Shown piece by piece: positions 15,592 to 63,177 of a stretch of 64,000 nucleotides of DNA; the first letter of the stretch is position 1, and every line of letters starts with the position of its first letter. The notes under the pieces were generated by a model. It was not told the DNA's origin. It did not search any database and saw only the letters and a program-made list of their open reading frames with translations. The stretch is from an uncultured Desulfatitalea sp. (GTDB lineage: Bacteria > Desulfobacterota > Desulfobacteria > Desulfobacterales > Desulfosarcinaceae): positions 1,128,749 to 1,192,748 of the forward strand of contig CALMNL010000004.1 of the NCBI GenBank assembly GCA_937868765.1, in the 5' to 3' direction. Made by a program: the position numbers and the translations under genes.

Positions 15592-16473
15592 CTAGTACAG
15601 TCCCTTAAATACTTCCTTGCTCAATTCTCCCAATCTGCCCAAATCCTTGCAAACATGAATACCAGCGGCCCCCATGGCATCGATCTTCCCCTGGGCCGTG
15701 CCGCTCTTGCCGCTGATGATGGCGCCGGCATGCCCCATGCGTCGTCCCGGAGGCGCCGTCAATCCGGCGATGAAACCGATCACCGGCTTGGTCACATTCT
15801 TGGCGATATACGCCGCGGCCTCTTCTTCCGCACCGCCGCCGATCTCGCCCACCATGACGATGCCCTTGGTCTGCGGGTCGGCCTGGAAAGCGCTCAGGCA
15901 GTCGATGAAATTGGTGCCGTTGACCGGGTCGCCGCCGATGCCGATGCAGGTCGTCTGGCCGATGTTCTGGCCGGTGAGCTGGTGAACGACCTCATAGGTG
16001 AGCGTTCCCGAGCGCGACACCACGCCGATGGGCCCGCCCGGCTTGTGGATCGGCGCCGGCATGATGCCCACCTTGCACTCGCCCGGGGTGATGATGCCCG
16101 GGCAGTTGGGCCCGATGAGCCGGGTGCGGCTGGACTTGAGGTAGTTCTTGACCTTCATCATGTCCAGCACCGGAATGCCTTCGGTGATGGCCACGATCAG
16201 CTCGATGCCCGCATCCACGGCCTCCATGATGGCGGCGGCCGCAAAGGGCGGCGGCACGAAGATCAGGCTGCAGTCGGCGCCGGTGGCGGACTTGGCTTCG
16301 GCCACGGTGTGAAAGACCGGCACCTCATCCATCTTCTGGCCGCCCTTGCCGGGGGTCACCCCGGCCACGACCTGGGTGCCGTAGGCCACGCACTGGCGCG
16401 TGTGAAACTGGCCTTCCTTGCCGGTGATGCCCTGGACAACGACTTTCGTATCTTTATTGACGAAAATGCTCAT
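15592..16473 (-). CDS. sucD: Succinyl-CoA ligase alpha subunit
   Basis: A 293-residue subunit that forms succinyl phosphate on its active-site histidine and links succinyl-CoA hydrolysis to ATP or GTP. The CoA-binding N-terminus reads [14 protein letters not shown]; the phospho-histidine lies in [25 protein letters not shown] is another signature. ATG 16473 has GGAG seven bases before. It lies 45 bases after sucC in the same operon. In this propionate cluster the enzyme would yield ATP while converting succinyl-CoA to succinate, or run in reverse. Confidence 0.95.
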
Positions 16474-16518
16474 ATGCAAACTCCGTTGGGATAGCGTTAG
16501 TCTTCGAAAGCAAAAGAA

Positions 16519-17682
16519 TCAGGCGCCCACGATCTGGGCCACCTTCTTCGCCGCATCCTTCAGGTCCACGGCGCCGGTCAGGTTCAACCCTGAATCGGCC
16601 AGGATCTTGCGGCCCTGTTCCACGTTGGTGCCTTCCATGCGCACCACCACCGGCACCTTGATGCCGGTCTTCTGGGCTGCCTTGACCACCCCCTCGGCCA
16701 GCACGTCGCAGCGCAGGATGCCGCCGAAGATATTGATCAGGATGCCCTTGACGTTGGGGTCGCTCAGGATGATGCGAAAGCCGTTCTCCACCATTTCGGC
16801 ATTGGCGCCGCCGCCCACGTCCAGGAAGTTGGCCGGCCGCGCGCCGGCCAGCTTGATGATGTCCATGGTGGCCATGGCCAGTCCGGCGCCGTTGACCATG
16901 TTGCCCACGTTGCCGTCCAGGTTGATGTAGTTCAGATTGAACTTGGAGGCTTCGATCTCCAGGGGATCCTCTTCGTCCAGATCGCGGAAATCGGCCAGGT
17001 CCTTGTGCCGGAAGAGCGCGTTGTCGTCGAAGTTGATCTTGGCGTCCAGGGCCAGCAGCGTCTGCTCGGCGGTGAGCACCAGGGGATTGATCTCCACCAG
17101 GGAGGCGTCGTAGCTCACGAAGAGCTTGTAGAGATTGTTGAGCATCTGGGTCATGGGCTTGATGGCGGCATCCGGCAGTTTGAGGCCGTAGGCCGCCTGC
17201 AGGCAGTGGTAGGACTGGATGCCGGTGAGCGGATTGATGTAGACCTTGATGATCTTCTCCGGTGTCTGTTCGGCCACGGCCTCGATGTCCATGCCGCCGG
17301 CCTCGCTGGCCATGATCACGATCTGGGCGCTGGCGCGGTCGGCGATGATGCTCAGGTAGAGCTCCTTGGCGATGTTGAGCCCCTGTTCCACCAATACTTT
17401 CTTGACCAGGCGGCCCTGGGGGCCGGTCTGGTGGGTCACCAGGGTCATGCCCAGAATACGGCCGGCCACCGAGGCCACTTCGTCCATGGAGCGGGCCAGT
17501 TGCACGCCGCCGCCTTTGCCGCGGCCGCCGGCGTGGATCTGGGCCTTGACCACCACGGGAAAACCGCCCAGGGTGGCCGCCACCTTCTGGGCCTCCTCCA
17601 CCGAGAAGGCCACGGCGCCTTTGGGGATCGGAACGCCGAAGCGCTCGAAGAGCGTTTTGGCCTGGTACTCATGAATCTTCAT
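16519..17682 (-). CDS. sucC: Succinyl-CoA ligase (ADP-forming) beta subunit
   Basis: A 387-residue subunit with an ATP-grasp domain. MKIHEYQAKTLFERFGVPIPKG is the standard N-terminus; KAQIHAGGRGKGGGVQ binds nucleotide; FLDVGGGANAEMV and INIFGGILRCDVLAEG contact the alpha subunit. ATG 17682 with AGGAAAA seven bases before. The spacer to the upstream biotin protein is about 150 bases without a terminator, consistent with one transcript from the methylmalonyl-CoA genes through sucCD. Confidence 0.95.
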   Translation of the reverse strand: MKIHEYQAKTLFERFGVPIPKGAVAFSVEEAQKVAATLGGFPVVVKAQIHAGGRGKGGGVQLARSMDEVASVAGRILGMTLVTHQTGPQGRLVKKVLVEQGLNIAKELYLSIIADRASAQIVIMASEAGGMDIEAVAEQTPEKIIKVYINPLTGIQSYHCLQAAYGLKLPDAAIKPMTQMLNNLYKLFVSYDASLVEINPLVLTAEQTLLALDAKINFDDNALFRHKDLADFRDLDEEDPLEIEASKFNLNYINLDGNVGNMVNGAGLAMATMDIIKLAGARPANFLDVGGGANAEMVENGFRIILSDPNVKGILINIFGGILRCDVLAEGVVKAAQKTGIKVPVVVRMEGTNVEQGRKILADSGLNLTGAVDLKDAAKKVAQIVGA

Positions 17683-17833
17683 GTCGTTTTCCTTCCTGAT
17701 ATAATTATGGAATTCCCGAAGCGAAAAGAGCATAGCGGCCGGGGCCCCTATGCTCTCTCGCAATCATTGCCGTGCAGGTGTGGCGATCATTCCCGCCCCC
17801 GGGCGTTGCCGCCGAAAGCCGTCCGTCTGTTTG

Positions 17834-51015: not shown

Positions 51016-52053
51016 TTACTCGGTCATCAATGCCGCCATGCCTTTGGATAGATGGTCTTCCAGGGTGCCGTCGGGCCGGCGGGTGACGATCAGCCCCTCC
51101 ACGCCGTCCAGTCGGTCCAGCAAGGCGACGCCCTGCGCCGGGCCCATGACCATCAGGCCGGTGGCCAGGCCGTCGGCCAGGGTGCAGTCGCCGGCCACCA
51201 CCGAGGCGCTGACCACATGGTTGACGATGGGAGAGCCGGTTCGCGGGTCGATGATGTGCGAATAACTCTTTCCTTCCACTTGGTAGAAATTGCGGTAGTC
51301 ACCGCTGGTGGCCAGGGCGCGGTTGTGCAGCGGCACCACCTTGTAGACCGCATCGGCCGCCGCCGCGGCTTCGGGCCGGTTGATGCCCACCCGCCAGGGC
51401 TTGCCGTCCGGCCGCTGGCCGGCAGCATACACCTCGCCGCCGATCTCGACCAGGTAATCTTTAAACCCCAGGCCGGCGATCACGGCCGCCACCTGGTCCA
51501 CGCCGTACCCCTTGGCGATGGAAGCCAGGTCGAGGGTCACGCCGGGCCGCTTTTTGGACAGACGGCCGTCCGCTTCGATGGCAATCAGGTCGAACCCCAC
51601 CGCCTGCCGAGCCCGCTCGACCGCCGCAGCGGCGGGCACCTGGCGCAGGGGGCCGTCCTTGCCGAAGCCCCAAATCTTCACCAGGGGCGCCACGGTGCCG
51701 TCCCAGGCCCCGTCGGTGAGGTGATAAATCCTTTGGGCGGTCTGCATCACCCGTAAAAAATCGTTGGATATGGCCAGGGGCGTGTCGGCTGTTGCCAGGG
51801 CGTTGAAGCGGCTGATCTCGCTGTCGGGCCGGAAGGTGGACATGCTCTGGTTGACCCGTTCCAGGCAGACCGCCACCGCGGCCTGCGCCGCGGCCGGGTC
51901 GAAGCTGCGGCCGGCCACCACCTTGATGTGGTAGGTGGTGCCCATGGTCTTGCCTTCAAGCAGGTATTCCTGTCTGCCGCCGCAGGCCGCGACGAACGCC
52001 ATCACAACAATGGCGAGCAATACACCCGGCGATCCTAAGTGTCTTATTTTCAT
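51016..52053 (-). CDS. apbE: FAD:protein FMN transferase (ApbE)
   Basis: A 345-residue lipoprotein that attaches FMN covalently to Thr/Ser of target proteins such as RNF/NQR subunits. The signal peptide ends in the lipobox FVAAC (Cys 24). Catalytic core: GKTMGTTYHIKV, ASIAKGYGVDQVAAVIAGLGFKDYLVEIGGE, and the metal-binding DPRTGSPI with a final ATGLMVMG block. The proteins it flavinylates are not in view. It follows hypE by 27 bases. Confidence 0.93.
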   Translation of the reverse strand: MKIRHLGSPGVLLAIVVMAFVAACGGRQEYLLEGKTMGTTYHIKVVAGRSFDPAAAQAAVAVCLERVNQSMSTFRPDSEISRFNALATADTPLAISNDFLRVMQTAQRIYHLTDGAWDGTVAPLVKIWGFGKDGPLRQVPAAAAVERARQAVGFDLIAIEADGRLSKKRPGVTLDLASIAKGYGVDQVAAVIAGLGFKDYLVEIGGEVYAAGQRPDGKPWRVGINRPEAAAAADAVYKVVPLHNRALATSGDYRNFYQVEGKSYSHIIDPRTGSPIVNHVVSASVVAGDCTLADGLATGLMVMGPAQGVALLDRLDGVEGLIVTRRPDGTLEDHLSKGMAALMTE

Positions 52054-52080
52054 CTAAATCCCTGGTAAAAATCCCCTCTG

Positions 52081-53091
52081 TCAACAGATGCGGGGCAGTT
52101 GTTCTCCCGAAAGCATATCGACGATGCGCCGGCCGCCGATGCACGTGCGCATCACCACCCGGCCGGGATGTTCGGCCACGACTTGCCCGATAACCACCGC
52201 CTCGCGGCCGTAAGGCTCCCGGCGCATGGCGGCCAGGGCCGCTGCGGCCTGGTCGGCGGGCACGCAGCAGAGCAGCTTGCCTTCGTTGGCCAGGTAGAGC
52301 GGATCGAAGCCCAGCAGGTCGCAGATGCCGGCCACGGCCGGACGCACGGGCAGCAGCGCCTCGTCGATGACCACCCCTACCTTGGATTGCAGGGCGATCT
52401 CGTTGAGCACGGTGCCCACGCCGCCCCGGGTGGGATCGCGCAGCACCCGCACGCCGGGGGCCGCGGCCAGAATTGCCTGGACCATGGCGGCCAGAGGCGC
52501 GGTGTCGCTCACCACCTCGGACTGGAAACGCAGCCCCTCGCGCTGGGTGAGCACCGCGATGCCATGGTCGGCCATGGTGCCCGAGAGCAGGATGCAGTCT
52601 CCGGGCCGGGCGCCGTCGCCGCCGATGACCACCCCCGGCGGCACCAGCCCGATACCGGCGGTGTTGATGAAAAGCTTGTCCGCCGCCCCCCGTTGCACCA
52701 CCTTGGTGTCGCCGGTGATCAATTGCACCCCGGCCCGGTCCAGGGCGTTCCGGATGCTGGCGAGGATGCGCTTGAGGTCGGCCACGGGCAACCCCTCTTC
52801 CAGGATCAGCGCCAGGCTCAGATAGCGCGGCACGGCCCCGCACATGGCCAGATCGTTGACCGTGCCGTTGACCGCCAGGTCGCCGATGTCGCCGCCGGGA
52901 AAGAAGATGGGGTCCACTACGAAGCTGTCGGTGGAAAAGGCCAGGCGTCCGCCAGCCACGTCGAAGACCGCGCCGTCATGCAGGGGCGCCAGCAGCGGAT
53001 TGTTGAACAGCGGCAGCAGCAGGTCGGTGGTCAGCTGGTGGGCCAGCTTGCCGCCGCTGCCGTGATCGAGAAGGATTTTTTCGATTTTCAT
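52081..53091 (-). CDS. hypE: Hydrogenase maturation protein HypE
   Basis: A 336-residue ATPase that dehydrates the HypF-carbamoylated cysteine to thiocyanate, supplying the CN ligands of [NiFe]-hydrogenase. The terminal sequence PRIC carries that cysteine at the last residue. Other marks: LLDHGSGGK at the start, FSTDSFVV, GDIGDLAVNGTVNDLAMCGA, RDPTRGGVGTVLNEIA. Complete length. Confidence 0.95.
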   Translation of the reverse strand: MKIEKILLDHGSGGKLAHQLTTDLLLPLFNNPLLAPLHDGAVFDVAGGRLAFSTDSFVVDPIFFPGGDIGDLAVNGTVNDLAMCGAVPRYLSLALILEEGLPVADLKRILASIRNALDRAGVQLITGDTKVVQRGAADKLFINTAGIGLVPPGVVIGGDGARPGDCILLSGTMADHGIAVLTQREGLRFQSEVVSDTAPLAAMVQAILAAAPGVRVLRDPTRGGVGTVLNEIALQSKVGVVIDEALLPVRPAVAGICDLLGFDPLYLANEGKLLCCVPADQAAAALAAMRREPYGREAVVIGQVVAEHPGRVVMRTCIGGRRIVDMLSGEQLPRIC

Positions 53092-53116
53092 GGGCTTCGC
53101 TCGATTCGCGGCGCCG

Positions 53117-54145
53117 TCAGGCGCCTTTGTAGAGCCCCCAGCCCACCCGCCGGATCAATCCTTTGCGCAGGGCCGTGTAGACGGCGGCTCGGATCACCGC
53201 CACGGAAAGGCCGGTGCGGCGTTGAAGGGTTGCGGTATCGATCCCCTGGGCCGAGCGCTGGATGAGGGCCACGACCTTTTCGGTGGGGGAAGGCGGACCT
53301 TTCGGGGTTTCGGCGGCCGGCCGGCGCTTTTTGGCTTGGGTGGCTTCGACCGCTGCCGCCGGCTGGGGCGCGGGAGGCACCACGATCCGTCGGCGGCGCA
53401 GCGGTGCAGCCTCGGACGTACCCGCCGCCTTGACCGGACGCCGCCTGCGGGCCGCGCCGGCTCTGAAGGCCGGAGCCGTCTCCGCAACCGCCTCCCCAGG
53501 CGCTTGCTCCGGGGCGTCCGCGGCTGATTGCACCAGTTCCAGCGGATCCACCTGGCGCAGGAGGAAAAGCAGCTCCGGCGATTCGTCCAGTCGGGCGCCC
53601 ACGCCATAGAGCACGGCCAACAGGTGTTTGCACAGCCCCTCGCCCTCCGGACAGGTGCATTCGAAATGGATCTCATCGGCCAGCGGAAAGAGCCCCTGAC
53701 CCTGGCGCTGGAAAAGATCGGTCAGGGGCTTCGGCAATTCGCCGGCTAGCAAGGATTCCAGCGAATCGAGCCGGCCCCGGCACCCTTGGCGCAGCAGGCG
53801 CCAATCGGCGGGAGCCATGCGGTCGACGTGGATCTGAATTTTGTAGGGCCGTTCCCGGGACCCCTGCACCACGGCCGTAATCAGGCCGCGGGCGATCTGC
53901 AGGTCCAATACGGCGCCGTACCGCACATAGCTGCGGCCCTGTTCGATATGCGGCATGAAATCCGCATACCGCTCCAGGTTCTGGCACCAGGCCTGGCCCC
54001 ACCACCCGTGGGCGATGACCCTGCCCTTGAGGATCACCGGGCGGATGTTGGGATATTTCTTTTGCAGTTTTTTACGGGCACTTTCGGCCTTAGCCTCCCT
54101 GAGGGCCACGGACTCGTAGGGCCCGACACGATGCCAAGAAGCCAT
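53117..54145 (-). CDS. SWIM zinc-finger protein with C-terminal winged helix
   Basis: A 342-residue protein. The N-terminal half resembles SWIM proteins linked to SNF2-type helicases (GWWGQAWCQNLERYADF, GRSYVRYGAVLDLQI, VVQGSRERPYKIQI). The zinc motif is CTCPEGEGLCKHL (CxC-x7-CxH). A basic, proline-rich linker (about 225-275) leads to a helix-turn-helix (TEKVVALIQRSAQGIDTATLQRRTGL...RKGLIRRVG). The usual partner helicase is absent; it lies oddly between hypD and hypE. ATG 54145 has GGAG seven bases before. Confidence 0.82.
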   Translation of the reverse strand: MASWHRVGPYESVALREAKAESARKKLQKKYPNIRPVILKGRVIAHGWWGQAWCQNLERYADFMPHIEQGRSYVRYGAVLDLQIARGLITAVVQGSRERPYKIQIHVDRMAPADWRLLRQGCRGRLDSLESLLAGELPKPLTDLFQRQGQGLFPLADEIHFECTCPEGEGLCKHLLAVLYGVGARLDESPELLFLLRQVDPLELVQSAADAPEQAPGEAVAETAPAFRAGAARRRRPVKAAGTSEAAPLRRRRIVVPPAPQPAAAVEATQAKKRRPAAETPKGPPSPTEKVVALIQRSAQGIDTATLQRRTGLSVAVIRAAVYTALRKGLIRRVGWGLYKGA

Positions 54146-54252
54146 ACAGGCGCTCCTCCACAACGGCTCGGGGTTCAGCAGCAGATCCGACAAGGCGCTA
54201 AATCACATTCAGAATCATTGGTTCCCGCGATTACAGCGAACCAGGGAAAAGG

Positions 54253-55365
54253 TCAACCGGTTCCGTTGGCGTCATGATAGCGGTAGTAGGCCGCGCAGGT
54301 GCCTTCGCTCGAAACCATGCACGGGCCCACGGGATCCATGGGCGTGCAGCGCTTGCGGAACAGGGGGCATTGCGGCGGCGTCCGGGCGCCGATGAGGATC
54401 TCGCCGCAGGCGCACCCCTTGGGCGGCGGCATTTCCACCACGGCGATCTGGAAGCGCTGCGCGGCATCGTAACGGGCCAGCTCCGGCCGGATGGCCAGAC
54501 CGCTGCCGGGGATGGGCCCCAGACCGCGCCAGCGGGCGTCGCAGGCGGTGAACACCTGGGCCAAAACCGCCCGGGCCCTCTGGTTGCCATCCGCGGTCAC
54601 CGCCCGGGGGTAGCCATTGGCCAGGGCGGGGGTCCCGGCATCGATCTGCGCCACCAGGAGGTCCACGGCCTGCAGGATATCCAATGGTTCGAAGCCGCCC
54701 ACCACGCAGGGAATGCCATGGGCCTGGAAAAAGTCGCGGTAGGCGTTCAAGCCGATGATCACCGACACATGCCCGGGAAGCAGGAAGCCATCGATTTTTA
54801 CCGCCGGATTGGCCATGAGGGCCGAAAGCGCCGCAGGTACGGTTTTATGCGCCGAATAGACGCAGAAATTCGCCAGCCCCATCTCCCGGGCCGCCAGGAC
54901 GGCCGCAGCGATGGTGGGCGCCGTGGTTTCGAACCCCACGCCCAGGAAGACCACGGTCTTATCCGGTCGCTCCCGGGCCAGTTGGACGGCATCCATGGCC
55001 GAATAGACCACACGCACATCGGCCCCCTCGGCCGACTCTTTCTGCAGGGAAGTATAGCTGCCCGGCACGCGGATCAAATCGCCGAAGGTGGCCACGATGA
55101 CATCTTCGCGCTGGGACAGGGCGATGAAGGCGTCGATCTCCTGGGTGTCGGTGACGCACACCGGGCAGCCCGGTCCCGAGAGCAGGGTCAGGTTCGACGG
55201 CAGCAGCGCCCGGATGCCGTGACGGAAGATCGCCATGGTGTGGGTGCCGCACACCTCCATCAGCCGCATGGGCCGGGTGGCCCGGCGCTCGATGCTGCGC
55301 AGCAGGCATTGGGCCAGGGCCGGATCGCGGAACGCCTCGGCAAATAATCGGCTGCTCTCGTTCAT
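54253..55365 (-). CDS. hypD: Hydrogenase maturation protein HypD
   Basis: A 370-residue Fe-S protein that, with HypC, holds the Fe(CN)2CO unit. Conserved cysteine motifs: MEVCGTHTMAI, GPGCPVCVT, and the four-cysteine cluster region GCACGEILIGARTPPQCPLFRKRCTP and GTCAAYYRY near the C-terminus. Complete length. It is separated from the SWIM gene by 107 bases. Confidence 0.95.
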   Translation of the reverse strand: MNESSRLFAEAFRDPALAQCLLRSIERRATRPMRLMEVCGTHTMAIFRHGIRALLPSNLTLLSGPGCPVCVTDTQEIDAFIALSQREDVIVATFGDLIRVPGSYTSLQKESAEGADVRVVYSAMDAVQLARERPDKTVVFLGVGFETTAPTIAAAVLAAREMGLANFCVYSAHKTVPAALSALMANPAVKIDGFLLPGHVSVIIGLNAYRDFFQAHGIPCVVGGFEPLDILQAVDLLVAQIDAGTPALANGYPRAVTADGNQRARAVLAQVFTACDARWRGLGPIPGSGLAIRPELARYDAAQRFQIAVVEMPPPKGCACGEILIGARTPPQCPLFRKRCTPMDPVGPCMVSSEGTCAAYYRYHDANGTG

Positions 55366-55384
55366 CGGTAACCTTTTTTAATCC

Positions 55385-55487
55385 GGTTTTAAGTTTTAGG
55401 TTTTAAGTCAAGGCATGAGGTCTATTTTATATAATCAAACGACAGCATTCCTCCACCTAAAACCTGAAACTTAAGACCTAAAACCAT
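55385..55487 (-). repeat. Dispersed intergenic repeat, copy B, with internal inverted repeat
   Basis: The fullest copy. Arms 55389-55408 and 55455-55474 are complementary at 18 of 20 positions with a 46-nt loop. Read on the minus strand it starts inside the last codons of hypF and provides its stop codon; the core is at 55437-55464. The element fills nearly the whole hypF-hypD gap. Confidence 0.65.
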
Positions 55488-57783
55488 TCTTAATCCTATT
55501 CCCCGCCACCACCGCCTGCCCCAATGAAATCCCGCCGTCGTTCGTCGGTACGCTCTGATGGCTGTACACCGCAAATCCCCGGTCTCTCAGGGTGGCGCCG
55601 AGCCCTTCGAGCAGCAGGGTGTTCTGGAAGCAGCCGCCGCTGAGCACCACCCGTTCCAGGCCGGTTTCCTCGCGCAGCGCCGCACACAGGGCGGCCCAGC
55701 CGTCGATGAGGGTGTCGTGGAAGCGCCGGGAGACGATGAAGGCCGGTGTGCCTTGCAGAATGTCTTCGACCAGGGCGCGCAGGATGGCGCCGGCGTCTAC
55801 CTGCTTGACCGCACCCGCGCCCCACGGAAAAGAATATCCGCCCTGGGCGCGGCCATCGGCGATCATCTCCAGCTCCATGGCGGCCTGGCCTTCGAAGGCC
55901 ACGGCCCGGCGCAAACCGATGATGGCGGCCGCGGCATCGAAGAGCCGGCCCAGGCTGGAAGTCAGCGGCGCGTTCACCCGGCGCCGGATCATCTGCACCA
56001 GGATCTCGCCTTTTTCCCGGGGGGTCTGCCGGACCAGGGGCAGATCCAGGTGCCACAGGTCGTCGCCGTAACAGTGGTGCAGCCAGGCCAGCGCCATGCG
56101 CCAGGGTTCCTTGATGGCGGCCGCGCCGCCGGGCATGGGCGCGCAGGCCAGGTGGGCCAGGCGTTGGAAACCGGTTTCGTCGGCGGCCAGCACTTCGCCG
56201 CCCCACACCGTGCCGTCCGGGCCGTAGCCCGTGCCGTCGAACGAGAGGCCCAGGACCCGGCCCGTCAACTGGTGCTCGGCCATGCAGGCGGCCACATGGG
56301 CGTGGTGGTGCTGCACCTGGATCACCGGCAGATCGGACCGGGAGAGGGCCCAGCGGGTGCTGAGATAGTCCGGGTGCAGATCGCAGGCCACGGCCTGGGG
56401 CGCGATGTCCAGGATGCGCTGGAGATGGGCGATGGTCTGGGCGAAGAAATCTTCGGTGGCCTGATTTTCCAGGTCGCCGATGTGCTGACTGACGAAGGCC
56501 TGGTTGCCGCGGTTCAGACAGACGGTGCTCTTGAGCTCGCCGCCGCAGGCCAGCACCATGGGCAGATCGTCTTTGAGAAAGATCGGCAGCGGCACGAAAC
56601 CCCGGGAGCGGCGCAACAGCCGGGTCTGGCCGTCGGCCCGGCGGGCCACGCTGTCATCGGTGCGCAGACGGATGGGCCGATCGTGGAGCAGGAAGTAATC
56701 GGCGATGGCGCCCAGGCGCGCCAAGGCCTCGTCGTTGTCGATGGCGATGGGCTCTTCGCTCAGGTTGCCGCTGGTCATCACCAGGGCGGTGAACCCTTGG
56801 GCCAAGAGCAGATAGTGCAAGGGCGTATAGGGCAGCATCACGCCGTAATAGTGGTTGCGGGGGGCCACCGAATAGGCCAGCCGCTCGGGCAGGCGCTTGG
56901 GCAGGAGCACGATGGGCCGCTGGATGGCGCCGAGCAGCGCCTGCTCGTCCCGGCCCAGCTGGGCGAACCCGGCGATGGTCGCCAGATCGGGCGCCATCAC
57001 CGCCAGGGGCTTTTCCTCGCGGTGCTTGCGCGCCCGCAGCCGTTCCACGGCCGGGTCGTTGAGGGCGTCGACCGTCAGGTGGAAGCCGCCCAGTCCCTTG
57101 AGCGCCACGATGTGCCCCTCTTTGAGCAGCTGCGCAGCCCGGGCGATGGGATCGTCGCCGGACAGCGCCTCCCCGTGGGCGTCGGTCAGCCAGACCCGGG
57201 GGCCGCACACGGCGCAGGCATTGGGCTGGGCATGGTAGCGCCGGTCGGCCGGGTCGTCGTACTCGGCCTGGCAGCGGGCGCACATGGCAAAGCCGCGCAT
57301 GGCGGTGTTGGGGCGGTCGTAGGGTACATCGTCGATGATGGTGTAGCGCGGCCCGCAGTTGGTGCAGTTGATGAAGGGGTAGCCGCAGCGCCGGTCGCCG
57401 GGATCGAAGAGTTCCCGGAGGCAGTCGTCGCAGACAGCCACATCCGGTGAGATGAGGGCCGTGCGGGCGGCATCGGCCTGGCTGGGACGAATGGTAAAAT
57501 CGGCATACCCCGTCACTGGCCGGTCCAGGATCTCCACGGCCACGATGTGGGCCAGGGGCGGTTTCTCCCTGGGCAGCGCCGCCAGAAACGCCGCCAGCGC
57601 CCCGGCGGCGGCCTCCACCTGGAGGGTCACGCCGGCGCTGGTGTTGATCACCTCGCCGCGCACCCCGTGGCTGCGGGCCAAACGATGTACATAGGGCCGG
57701 AAACCGACCCCCTGAACGACCCCGCGAACGTGAACCTGCTTGGCCGCAATGGGGTTATGGTCGGATGCTTGAATCTGCGCCAT
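55471..57783 (-). CDS. hypF: Carbamoyltransferase HypF
   Basis: A 770-residue enzyme that makes the carbamoyl group later turned into CN. Domains in order: acylphosphatase (residues 15-100, RGVVQGVGFRPYVHRLA), two zinc fingers (CDDCLRELF..., CTNCGPRYT, CARCQAEYD, CAVCGPRVW, about 115-205), YrdC-like (215-400), and the Kae1-like C-terminus with VQVQHHHAHVAACMAEH and LSFDGTGYGPDGTVWGGE. The last residues and stop are provided by the dispersed repeat, so the C-terminal tail may be recently changed. Confidence 0.95.
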   Translation of the reverse strand: MAQIQASDHNPIAAKQVHVRGVVQGVGFRPYVHRLARSHGVRGEVINTSAGVTLQVEAAAGALAAFLAALPREKPPLAHIVAVEILDRPVTGYADFTIRPSQADAARTALISPDVAVCDDCLRELFDPGDRRCGYPFINCTNCGPRYTIIDDVPYDRPNTAMRGFAMCARCQAEYDDPADRRYHAQPNACAVCGPRVWLTDAHGEALSGDDPIARAAQLLKEGHIVALKGLGGFHLTVDALNDPAVERLRARKHREEKPLAVMAPDLATIAGFAQLGRDEQALLGAIQRPIVLLPKRLPERLAYSVAPRNHYYGVMLPYTPLHYLLLAQGFTALVMTSGNLSEEPIAIDNDEALARLGAIADYFLLHDRPIRLRTDDSVARRADGQTRLLRRSRGFVPLPIFLKDDLPMVLACGGELKSTVCLNRGNQAFVSQHIGDLENQATEDFFAQTIAHLQRILDIAPQAVACDLHPDYLSTRWALSRSDLPVIQVQHHHAHVAACMAEHQLTGRVLGLSFDGTGYGPDGTVWGGEVLAADETGFQRLAHLACAPMPGGAAAIKEPWRMALAWLHHCYGDDLWHLDLPLVRQTPREKGEILVQMIRRRVNAPLTSSLGRLFDAAAAIIGLRRAVAFEGQAAMELEMIADGRAQGGYSFPWGAGAVKQVDAGAILRALVEDILQGTPAFIVSRRFHDTLIDGWAALCAALREETGLERVVLSGGCFQNTLLLEGLGATLRDRGFAVYSHQSVPTNDGGISLGQAVVAGNRIKNGFRS

Positions 57784-57794
57784 GACTCACGGTG

Positions 57795-58031
57795 TTACGA
57801 CGGAACATCTTTGTCGGCCGCGGCGGCCGCCTCGCGCAACAGGGCCAGGGTCTCCAGGGCGGCCTGGGCGTCGAGTTTCTGGATGGCAAAACCGGCATGC
57901 ACGATGACATAATCGCCCACCTGGGCATCTTCCAGGAGCATCAGGCTGGTCCGGCGCTGGACGCCGGCCACGTCGATGGTGGCATCGCTGCCTTCGATTT
58001 GAACGATCCGGGAGGGAATGGCAAGGCACAT
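57795..58031 (-). CDS. hypC: Hydrogenase maturation chaperone HypC
   Basis: A 78-residue chaperone that carries the Fe(CN)2CO unit and docks on the hydrogenase large subunit. It begins with the essential MCLAIPS; GDYVIVHAGFAIQKLD is the other signature. It heads the hypC-hypF-hypD-(SWIM)-hypE-apbE run, 11 bases before hypF. Confidence 0.94.
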   Translation of the reverse strand: MCLAIPSRIVQIEGSDATIDVAGVQRRTSLMLLEDAQVGDYVIVHAGFAIQKLDAQAALETLALLREAAAAADKDVPS

Positions 58032-59994: not shown

Positions 59995-61236
59995 ATGAAA
60001 GAAGTGGTCATTATCAGTGGGGTACGAACGCCGGTGGGCAGCTATATGGGCGCCCTGAAAGGCATCGAGGCCTACGACCTGGCGGCCCTCGTGATGAACG
60101 CCGCCATCCAGAAGGCGGGCATCGCGGCCACCGATGTGGACGAGGTGGTCTTTGGCCAGGCCTATCAGAACGGCGAGTATGTCAACATCGCCCGCATGGG
60201 GCTGCTCACGGCCGGCTGGCCGGATTCGATCCCCGGCGTCACCATCGACCGGCGCTGCTGCACCGGTCTGGACGTGGTGCGTTTCGCCTCGGCCCTGATC
60301 CAGGCGGGCCAGGCCGAGATCGTGGTGGCCGGCGGCGTGGAGAGCATGAGCAACGCCGAGTTCTATCTGCCCGGCAGCATCAAGTGGGGCGTGGGCGGCA
60401 CCGGCGGCATGCCCCGGGGGCATGGCGACCTGGCCATCTGGGGGCTGCGCTTCTACGACCGTATTCAGCGCGCCCGGGTCATGTCCCAGCCGGAAAAGCG
60501 CTTCGGCATCCTGCCCTCCATGATGGCGTGGGCCGAAACCGCGGCCAAGGTGGAAAACATCACCCGCGAGGCGTGCGACCAGTGGGCGCTGGAAAGCCAT
60601 CGCAAGGCGTGCGCAGCCATGGCGGCCGGCAAGTTCAACGACGAGATCGTGCCGGTGCCCGTGCCCCAGCGCAAGGGCGACCCGCTGATGGTCGCCCAGG
60701 ATGAAAACCCGCGCAGCGACACCGCCATCGAAAAACTGGCCAAGCTCAAACCCGTCTTGGGCGGCGTGTGCACGGCCGGCAACTCCTCCACCGAGAACGA
60801 CGGCGCGGCCGCCGTGGTGGTCACCACCCGGGAAAAGGCCGAGGCCCTGGGCATCGCCCCGATGGCGACCTTCAAGGTGTGCGCCGTGGCCGGCGACGAC
60901 CCGCGCCACGCCTACCGCACGGTGCCGGTGGCGGTCAACAAGGCCCTCTCCATGTCCGGCCACAAGATCGGCGAGATGGAGCTGATCGAGGTGCAGGAGG
61001 CCTTCGCGGCCCAGGTACTGGCCGATCTGAAAGAGATGGGCGTGGGGCCGGACGATTATGCCAAAGTCAATGTCAACGGCTCGGGCATCTCCCTGGGCCA
61101 CCCCATTGCCGCCACGGGCACGCGCGTGCTGGTATCACTGCTGCATGAGATGAAGCGGCGCAATGCGCGTCTGGCCCTGGAGTGCATCTGCGGCGGCGGC
61201 GGCCTGGGCATCGCCGCGGTGCTGGAACGCAAATAG
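59995..61236 (+). CDS. Acetyl-CoA C-acyltransferase (thiolase)
   Basis: A 413-residue biosynthetic/degradative thiolase that joins or cleaves acyl-CoA units. All catalytic parts are present: nucleophile in TIDRRCCTGLDVVRFA (about Cys 90), GHPIAATGTR with the histidine, and CICGGGGLG with the second cysteine. AAAGGAA stands before ATG 59995. It is 57 bases upstream of the acyl-CoA dehydrogenase, so both likely serve one beta-oxidation-like pathway. Unlike the serine-bearing homologue at 13 kb, this one should be active. Confidence 0.93.
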   Translation: MKEVVIISGVRTPVGSYMGALKGIEAYDLAALVMNAAIQKAGIAATDVDEVVFGQAYQNGEYVNIARMGLLTAGWPDSIPGVTIDRRCCTGLDVVRFASALIQAGQAEIVVAGGVESMSNAEFYLPGSIKWGVGGTGGMPRGHGDLAIWGLRFYDRIQRARVMSQPEKRFGILPSMMAWAETAAKVENITREACDQWALESHRKACAAMAAGKFNDEIVPVPVPQRKGDPLMVAQDENPRSDTAIEKLAKLKPVLGGVCTAGNSSTENDGAAAVVVTTREKAEALGIAPMATFKVCAVAGDDPRHAYRTVPVAVNKALSMSGHKIGEMELIEVQEAFAAQVLADLKEMGVGPDDYAKVNVNGSGISLGHPIAATGTRVLVSLLHEMKRRNARLALECICGGGGLGIAAVLERK

Positions 61237-61293: not shown

Positions 61294-62457
61294 ATGGATT
61301 TCAAATTGTCAAAAGAACACGAGATGCTGCGCAAGGCCGTCCAGGACTTCGCCAAGAAAAAGATCGCCCCCTTCGTGGACGAATGGGACCGCAACCACTA
61401 CCTGCCGATCAAGGAAGTGATCAAGCCCATGGGCGAACTGGGATTCTTCGGTGCCGTGATTCCCGAAGCGTACGGCGGCGAGAACATGGGCTGGCTGGCC
61501 ACCTCCATCATCACCGAAGAGATTGCCCGCGTGTCCAGCTCCCTGCGGGTACAGTACAACCTGTCGGCCATCGGTTGCGCTTTTCCGATTTACCGCTACG
61601 GCACCGAGGCGGCCAAGCAGAAGTATGTGCGCAAGCTGGCCGAGGGCGACTACCTGGGCAGTTTCGCCATCACCGAGCCCAACGCCGGGTCGGATATCAT
61701 GTCCATCGAGACCCTGGCCGAGGACAAGGGCGACCACTTCGTGCTCAACGGCTCCAAGACCTGGATCTCCAACGCCAACCAGGCCGACGTGACCATCGTC
61801 TATGCCTTCACCGACAAGTCCAAGGGCGGCAAGGGGCTTTCGGCCTTCATCGTCGAACTGCGCAACTTCAACGGCATCAAGACCACCGACCTGGACAAGA
61901 TGGGCTCCTACAGCTCGCCCACCGGCGAGATCTTCTTCGACAACACCCGTGTGCCCAAGGAGAATCTGCTGGGCCAAGTGGGCGACGGCGCCAAGATCGT
62001 CTTCGGCTCGTTGAACAATACGCGCCTCTCGGCCGCGGCCGGCGCCGTGGGCTGCGCCCAGGCCTGCCTGGACATCGCCACCAAGTACTGCAACGAGCGC
62101 AAGCAGTTCGGCCAGCCCATCGGCAAGTTCCAGATGAACCAGGACCTCATCGCCCAGATGGTGTGCGACGTGGAAGCCGCCCGCCTGCTGGTTTACAAGG
62201 CCTCGCTGCAGAAGGACGACGGCAACCTGGGCAACGGCATGGAGGTGGCCCAGGCCAAGTACTTCGCCGGCGAGACCGCCATGAAGTGCGCCAACTACGC
62301 CCTGCGCATCATGGGCGCCTACGGCTACTCCACCGAGTACCCGGTGGCCCGCTACTACCGCGACATCCCCACCTACGTCATGGTGGAAGGCTCGGCCAAC
62401 ATCTGCAAGACCATCATCGCCCAGGATCAGCTCGGCTACCGCAAGGCCAATCGGTAA
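61294..62457 (+). CDS. Acyl-CoA dehydrogenase, glutaryl-CoA-dehydrogenase-like
   Basis: A 387-residue FAD enzyme. FAITEPNAGSDIMSIETLAEDKGDHFVLNGSKTWISNA and the C-terminal YYRDIPTYVMVEGSANICK carry the FAD-binding and catalytic glutamate regions. As I recall, the sequence is near the non-decarboxylating glutaryl-CoA dehydrogenase of Desulfococcus multivorans, especially in the N-terminus and the EGSANICKxIIAxDQLG-x-RKANR ending. That would give glutaconyl-CoA from glutaryl-CoA, with electrons to EtfAB. Whether it decarboxylates cannot be read here. GGGAGGG precedes the ATG; it follows the thiolase. Confidence 0.9.
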   Translation: MDFKLSKEHEMLRKAVQDFAKKKIAPFVDEWDRNHYLPIKEVIKPMGELGFFGAVIPEAYGGENMGWLATSIITEEIARVSSSLRVQYNLSAIGCAFPIYRYGTEAAKQKYVRKLAEGDYLGSFAITEPNAGSDIMSIETLAEDKGDHFVLNGSKTWISNANQADVTIVYAFTDKSKGGKGLSAFIVELRNFNGIKTTDLDKMGSYSSPTGEIFFDNTRVPKENLLGQVGDGAKIVFGSLNNTRLSAAAGAVGCAQACLDIATKYCNERKQFGQPIGKFQMNQDLIAQMVCDVEAARLLVYKASLQKDDGNLGNGMEVAQAKYFAGETAMKCANYALRIMGAYGYSTEYPVARYYRDIPTYVMVEGSANICKTIIAQDQLGYRKANR

Positions 62458-62520
62458 GATTCGAGTCCGGGCGTCAGGATCTCCGACGCCTGGACTCGGT
62501 TTTAAGTGTAAGGGGCACGT

Positions 62521-63138
62521 ATGCCATCGGTTTTAGAAGTCTTCTCCGACTACATCTGACCCTGGTGCTACTTCGTTACCGGGCGTATCGAACGAGCACA
62601 GCAGGAGTTGGATCTGACGGTTCGCTGGACGGCCTTTCCGCTGCACCCCGAAACACCGGACGGGGGGCGCAGCCTGGAAGAGCTCTTCGCCGGTCGCGGG
62701 GTGGATATTCCCGCGGTCCTGGCCCGCCTGAAAAGCACGGCCGCCGATCTGGGGCTGCCCTTCACCGCGCGATCCATGACCTACAACAGCCGCCGGGCCC
62801 AGGAGCTGGGCAAATGGGCCGAGGCCGAAGGCCGGGGCGAGCGCTTCCACCATCTGGTTTTCGAGGCCTACTTCGCCCACGGCCGCAACATCGCCCAGCT
62901 GCAGGTGCTGGCCGAGCTGGTCGCGGCCGCGGGCCTGGACCCCGCGGCGGCCCAAAGGGTACTGGACGAGGGCCGCTACCAGGCCGCGGTGGACGCGGAT
63001 TGGCGCCGCAGCCGGGAATTGGGCATCACGGCCGTACCCACCTTTCAAATCCAGGGCCGCCGCCTGGTGGGCGCCCACCCGTACGAGGCCATCCGGGATC
63101 TGGCCCTGCTCGCCGGCGCCGCGGCCAAAAAATCCTGA
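62521..63138 (+). CDS. FrnE/DsbA-family oxidoreductase, predicted selenoprotein (UPWC)
   Basis: A 205-residue thioredoxin-fold protein of the DsbA/FrnE (2-hydroxychromene-2-carboxylate isomerase-like) family. From ATG 62521, with AAGGGG ahead, it reads MPSVLEVFSDYI, then TGA (62557-62559), then PWCYF. Relatives have S-D-Y/F-x-C-P-W-C-Y here, so TGA stands at the first active-site cysteine: Sec13-Pro-Trp-Cys16. The remainder is intact: helical insert with SRRAQELGKWAEAEGRG and FHHLVFEAYFAHGRNI, the cis-proline VPTFQIQGRRLVGAHPYEAI. A SECIS-like hairpin follows the TGA. Without recoding only a fragment from 62608 would be called. Confidence 0.87.
62565..62599 (+). promoter_or_regulatory. Candidate bacterial SECIS element
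   Basis: Starting five bases after the TGA: GTGCT (62565-62569) pairs with AGCAC (62595-62599); after an AC/CG internal loop TTCG (62572-62575) pairs with CGAA (62589-62592); a T/T mismatch and a TA/TA pair carry the apical loop CCGGGCG (62579-62585). The loop begins 20 bases after the TGA and contains GG, as bacterial SECIS loops do for SelB binding. Confidence 0.7.
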
Positions 63139-63177
63139 AGGCCGGCAACGCGTTCCGCCGTCTTAGGTGGCCTTTTT
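63138..63177 (+). terminator. Rho-independent terminator after the selenoprotein gene
   Basis: AAGGCC (63138-63143) pairs with GGCCTT (63169-63174), enclosing a 25-nt loop, and runs into TTTTT. It ends the thiolase-dehydrogenase-selenoprotein run. Confidence 0.6.

Follow-up and report, generated by a model that had tools for sequence, protein, structure and literature searches.

DsbA-like proteins with selenocysteine (Sec) in a UxxC active site have been predicted before, and the gene described here joins them. In the accessible portions of the sources, the 2005 Sargasso Sea study (PMC1088965) reports nine predicted DsbA-like Sec sequences of COG2761 with a UXXC motif, the 2008 GOS study (PMC2398784) lists DsbA 1, 2 and 3, a 2022 review lists a DsbA-like selenoprotein as predicted, and a 2026 review (PMC13188914) does the same for 'DsbA-like protein form 1'. 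Sec-containing DsbA-like proteins are also given, in the accessible part of a 2006 paper (PMC1794560), for the anaerobes Desulfovibrio desulfuricans, Anaeromyxobacter and Desulfotomaculum reducens. FrnE of Deinococcus radiodurans (drFrnE) is described in the accessible part of PMC8945050 as a predicted cytoplasmic oxidoreductase of the DsbA family with a CP(W/F)C motif; FrnE reduced insulin and DTNB and isomerised disulfides in vitro, and the mutant was sensitive to cadmium and diamide.

The gene lies at 62521-63138 (+) of the window, i.e. the whole 64,000-nucleotide stretch of DNA that was analysed. Judged from its sequence, it is highly probable that it encodes a bacterial selenoprotein, a single-domain, FrnE-type protein of DsbA fold with a U-P-W-C active site. 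The accessible portions of the literature on selenoproteins or selenocysteine combined with FrnE, DsbA-like or COG2761 yielded no functional study of the clade to which it belongs.

Reading frame, domain and conservation of the TGA

The frame comprises 205 codons, from an ATG at 62521 to a TGA stop at 63136-63138, and is free of stops except at codon 13 (TGA, 62557-62559). With this TGA read as Sec, the translation is MPSVLEVFSDYI-U-PWCYFVTGR... (205 residues); the stretch before the active site ends in SDYI (...SDYI-U-PWC...), and the whole protein has one Sec, at position 13, and one cysteine, Cys16 (TGC, 62566-62568). A probable ribosome-binding site (AAGGGG, 62510-62515 (+)) was seen by eye 5 nt upstream of the ATG, in agreement with the preliminary description. 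The read-through protein matched the profile PF01323 (DSBA) at 3.2e-36 over residues 5-193; both flanks of the TGA thus fall in one domain, and the frame is protein-like on either side, as had been claimed. The closest solved relative was drFrnE (1.8e-20), with U13 and C16 aligned with its Cys22 and Cys25. The TGA therefore stands at the position of the first cysteine of the active-site motif, again as first described. When UxxC and CxxU read-through frames were scanned over the whole window, 13 candidates arose, of which, by eye, this gene was the sole convincing one. At 15592-17763 (-), two genes in the same frame are split by a TGA; by eye they resemble succinyl-CoA ligase subunits with an ordinary gene border between them, and the place was not counted as a Sec site.

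The codon at the site could be located in 177 loci (a count that includes duplicates of the same genomes): TGA in 153, TGC or TGT in 20, TGG in one and other codons in three. Duplicates were removed before the tree was built, together with a stray sequence (L139), a locus with its frame broken in the assembly (L158) and one with an N at the site (L159). The 148 non-redundant relatives comprised 127 with TGA (Sec members hereafter), 19 with Cys, one with Trp and one, distant, with Ser; apart from these last two, the aligned homologues thus carry Cys or Sec at the site, as the preliminary description supposed. The motif reads UPWC in 110 Sec members, UPFC in 15 and UPYC in two, the U-x-x-C centre being kept in all 127.

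A different reading is that the TGA is a true stop, produced by a base error, left in a pseudogene or separating two products, the second with a downstream start. Standard gene finding does deliver such a product: the longest in-frame open reading frame under table 11 starts at a TTG (62608) and encodes 176 amino acids. That start, however, would lose the active site and the first strand, and 127 of the 148 non-redundant relatives carry this TGA too, between conserved flanking residues. This recurrence excludes a TGC-to-TGA base error and argues, as the preliminary description did, against a pseudogene or a chance frame. Together with the codon constraint and co-varying pairs found 3′ of the TGA (see below), it makes a true stop very improbable. 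The prediction that Sec is inserted at codon 13 is almost certain to hold, and standard annotation would, as foreseen, shorten the gene and drop its active site.

In the tree, the window's clade (support 100/99) held 107 Sec, four Cys and one Trp among 112 rows; farther off, a second clade comprised 17 Sec rows and 11 Cys rows, largely with the motif UPFC, and a third clade had four rows, three with Sec and one with Cys. At least nine changes between Sec and Cys were counted over the whole tree. The Cys rows of the window's clade nest among Sec rows at three places (L038; L136; L140 with L141), which suggests roughly three Sec-to-Cys changes, the local support being moderate (98/73, 100/85 and 97/72) and the bootstrap unsettled. 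The scan of named genomes was not biased toward TGA, since one of its six search patterns demanded a Cys codon at the site, and it found TGA in all of the best 80 of 203 relatives. With these best 80 of 203 included, TGA occupied the site in 97 of 98 loci, the exception being L038 (TGC). In the window's family, 30 genomes were searched whole and 17 had a match, with an in-frame TGA in 17 of 18 matches; matches (E 1e-12 or better) occurred in 171 of 389 genomes of the class and in 89 of 395 of the phylum, for which the number of stops per match is given without their position.

Some individual loci are worth recording. In L135 (G274:C333:2443-3033) a TGG (Trp) replaces the Sec TGA and the hairpin described below is mostly kept; either a base error or a single-nucleotide change that cost the active site may account for this. 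Genome G129 carries both a Cys copy (L136) and a Sec copy (L137), which sit near each other in the tree. A genome of the window's family contains a second, distant Sec paralogue (L039, G028:C56:47783-48352), 33% identical and with the motif UPFC. Cultured relatives in which the TGA form occurs include Desulfosarcina widdelii PP31 (L058) and D. alkanivorans PL12 (L064).

A hairpin 3′ of the TGA

A predicted SECIS-type hairpin with a G in its small apical loop follows the UGA within the coding sequence (62572-62592 (+)). Numbered from the T of the TGA, its stem is formed by nt 16-19 with 33-36 and nt 21-23 with 29-31, and it starts 12 nt past the UGA; the apical loop (nt 24-28, CGGGC, 62580-62584) lies 20 nt past it, and 105 of the 107 Sec members of the window's clade have a G at loop nt 25. 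Since the hairpin is itself coding DNA, synonymous codon choice was tested in these 107 genes. The seven hairpin codons ranked 1, 2, 4, 5, 8, 9 and 10 for synonymous constraint among 124 testable columns. Arg22 was encoded by CGT in 85 of 90 cases, compared with 10% of Arg codons elsewhere in the genes, Gly21 by GGG in 78 of 87 (27% elsewhere) and Phe18 by TTC in 98 of 99 (42% elsewhere); at Tyr17, just ahead of the hairpin, codon choice was free.

Pairs 17-35, 18-34, 19-33, 21-31, 22-30 and 23-29 were formed in 103-107 of the 107 Sec members, in 16-19 of 20 distant Sec members and in 5-15 of 19 Cys members, a group that is small, comes mostly from other clades and is only a rough control. Pair 19-33 was A-T in 84, G-C in 14 and T-A in four of the 107, and pair 21-31 was T-A in 81, C-G in 22 and A-T in one; the distant Sec members kept these pairs as G-C and C-G, respectively (18 of 20 in each case), and Cys members formed them in 6 and 10 of 19. 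Of the 19 Cys rows, 15 also formed pair 17-35; among the 107 Sec rows, just 84 formed pair 16-36. Covariation, counted on 36 of the 107 Sec members (35 distinct), scored 0.196, compared with 0.104 (sd 0.012) in shuffles, none of 500 of which scored as high; four pairs had changed on both sides, and the +3 slide control scored 0.145. In the same 36 members the count of further pair types was no higher than in shuffles (247/500).

Folding energy gave a weak signal and was not used as proof of the hairpin. Compared with synonymous recodings, the Sec genes had a mean z of -0.73 (46 of 127 below -1), two control windows in the same genes giving -0.37 and -0.16; the window's own gene had a z of -0.77, 21.6% of its recodings being at least as stable. 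Against dinucleotide shuffles, stretches of 49 and 65 nt from the window had z values of -1.62 and -2.99, respectively.

Selenocysteine machinery and gene neighbourhood

The genes selA, selB, selC and selD, whose absence would have told against the preliminary description, were sought in the window's genome and all found, with scores of 614.5 bits for selA, 360.6 for selB, 386.1 for selD and 72.4 for selC (cut-off 47; anticodon tca). Weaker tRNA-Sec matches there carry no meaning, likewise occurring in all 14 control genomes. The selD gene (L018, G000:C6:34195-35121) has an in-frame TGA of its own, so the selenophosphate synthetase of this genome is, by its sequence, probably a selenoprotein too. 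These genes bear on another reading of codon 13, in which the TGA is translated as a different amino acid, for instance Trp, through a code change or near-cognate read-through. One relative (L135) does have a Trp codon at the site. The gene's own stop is nevertheless TGA, the 148 relatives have Cys at the site 19 times and Trp once, and the genome has all of the machinery, including a tRNA (anticodon tca) whose score identifies it as tRNA-Sec, which leaves this reading a minute chance.

Across the phylum, selB was found in 353 of 395 genomes, and comparison by hand placed 7 of the 89 genomes with a protein match outside that set. Four of these have the TGA form (G397, G498, G708 and G580). In the first three, which are 76-85% complete, selA and a tRNA-Sec over the cut-off are present, and the lack of selB probably reflects a gap in the assembly. 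The remaining genome, G580, is 100% complete; its copy (L180, G580:C37:25700-27000) has the TGA and an unbroken hairpin, and selA, selB and tRNA-Sec were all absent above the cut-off, which counts against the selenoprotein reading. In GC and tetranucleotide composition the contig resembles the remainder of that genome. Candidate explanations are that the machinery was lost recently, that it falls in an assembly gap or that the system is divergent. The three selB-less genomes with the Cys form (G422, G602 and G643) also lack selA; G602 has a pair of tRNA-Sec matches that barely pass the cut-off (50.1 and 48.3 bits) and were taken as other long-armed tRNAs. In the window's family selB was present in 30 of 30 genomes and so separates nothing there.

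Upstream of the selenoprotein gene lie a thiolase gene (59995-61236) and an acyl-CoA dehydrogenase gene (61294-62457), and downstream a gene for a YdjM-like membrane protein. The preliminary description saw a link to a thiolase/acyl-CoA dehydrogenase operon, which found no support. Between the dehydrogenase and selenoprotein genes is a terminator-like hairpin (62455-62504 (+); -33.3 kcal/mol, z -5.3, a stability reached by none of 200 shuffles) with four T after it, missed by a terminator scan limited to loops of 3-8, and this argues against a single operon. A weak terminator-like site also lies 3′ of the gene (63155-63171 (+)), in a scan that gave four sites in the region compared with 2.3 expected in shuffles. 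Among the named loci (best 80 of 203, some shortened by contig ends), the thiolase and dehydrogenase genes were near the gene in two (L040 and L042, both close relatives) and a YdjM-like gene in three; the commonest neighbour cluster, a response-regulator-like mixture, reached 11 of the 80, and 47 of 75 had their nearest upstream gene in the same orientation. In L041, 82% identical and with a full 3 kb upstream, both the thiolase and the dehydrogenase were absent. A functional operon was therefore rejected, and it was concluded that this is a stand-alone redox gene. Elsewhere in the window (51016-58031 (-)), genes for the hydrogenase maturation proteins HypC, HypF and HypD and for an AIRS protein, which looks like HypE by position, adjoin an ApbE-family gene.

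The neighbours also bear on the possibility that the protein, though a selenoprotein, acts mainly as an oxidase or isomerase, or as a glutathione-linked enzyme of the HCCA isomerase type, linked, like the adjoining thiolase and acyl-CoA dehydrogenase, to the catabolism of aromatic or acyl-CoA compounds. In its favour are a weaker hit on 2-hydroxychromene-2-carboxylate isomerase (3.9e-5) and the adjacency itself. HCCA isomerase (GST kappa-like) is not known to have a CxxC centre and carries Ser at the catalytic place, whereas UxxC is present in all 127 Sec members and Ser occurs only in L156, a distant row. With the intervening hairpin, the rarity of the neighbours among the best 80 of 203 (no neighbour family in more than 11 of the 80) and their absence from L041, this role is improbable, and a redox enzyme using its U/C pair is very likely, as far as sequence can tell.

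Proposed function and relation to known proteins

In the proposed mechanism, SelB and Sec-tRNA(Sec) would decode the UGA at codon 13 as Sec, guided by the hairpin in the coding sequence. By analogy with FrnE, Sec13 would be the selenolate that attacks a disulfide, and Cys16, beside the proline loop V172-P173, would be the resolving thiol that clears the mixed selenide-sulfide. The loop motif was found in all 127 Sec members, P173 being invariant in 34 of 34; the cis form of this loop, which faces the active site, is a trait of the DsbA family. Re-reduction would fall to a thioredoxin-like or low-molecular-weight thiol partner with no part for a C-terminal CXXXXC tail, and Sec may ease regeneration by such an outside reductant. 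No signal-like sequence was recognised by eye at the N-terminus, and this, in an anaerobe, makes a cytoplasmic disulfide reductase or oxidoreductase the most likely role; the same analogy leans somewhat toward reductase as the direction, rather than oxidase or isomerase.

It is possible, though put forward tentatively, that Sec is the ancestral and nearly fixed state (107 of 112) of a housekeeping cytoplasmic FrnE in this Desulfobacterota clade, that the Cys forms are later reversions without the hairpin, and that selenium replaces the missing C-terminal tail, giving a disulfide reductase that works with a single Sec and a single Cys and is adapted to anaerobes. If true, this would be a counter-case to the view that in such families Sec is mostly a late and sporadic replacement of Cys. 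The clade offers natural Sec/Cys pairs, among them L137 and L136 in G129, for asking why selenium persists in a simple disulfide enzyme. Among the selenoproteins of sulfate reducers and related bacteria this protein is seemingly one of the more frequent, and it is probably mis-annotated in many genomes, because standard annotation cuts the gene and no NCBIfam model matches the protein at its cut-off. The sole NCBIfam match was to NF041057 (44.5 bits; cut-off 190), the Rcas_1661 family thioredoxin-like (seleno)lipoprotein, a DsbG-like Sec family; it covered the C-terminal part only, and membership was rejected.

COG2761, to which DsbA-like selenoproteins have been assigned, is presumably the FrnE group. 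As described in the accessible portions of the sources, those proteins share with the window protein the domain PF01323, Sec as the first residue of UxxC and a hairpin past the UGA; compared by description only, they likely belong to the same clade, and their entries (PMC1088965, 'DsbA 1' in PMC2398784, PMC13188914) are, in those portions, listings without a function. The proteins in the accessible part of PMC1794560 are likewise Sec-containing and DsbA-like, a likeness of description in a text that leaves unstated whether they are FrnE or another DsbA type. For the best solved relative (DR_0659; PDB 5cnw and 5cp1), whose Cys22 corresponds to Sec13, the accessible part of PMC8945050 describes a C-terminal CXXXXC thought to regenerate the active site, and notes that FrnE of D. 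maricopensis and Streptomyces lacks it. The earlier assignment to a DsbA/FrnE-type protein with Sec at the first active-site position is thus strongly supported, but the likeness to Deinococcus FrnE does not extend to this tail, found in none of the 127 Sec members. What the analysis adds to the known predictions is a protein without the FrnE-type CXXXXC in which Sec is near-fixed across an extensive clade of Desulfobacterota and has been exchanged for Cys in about three nested places.
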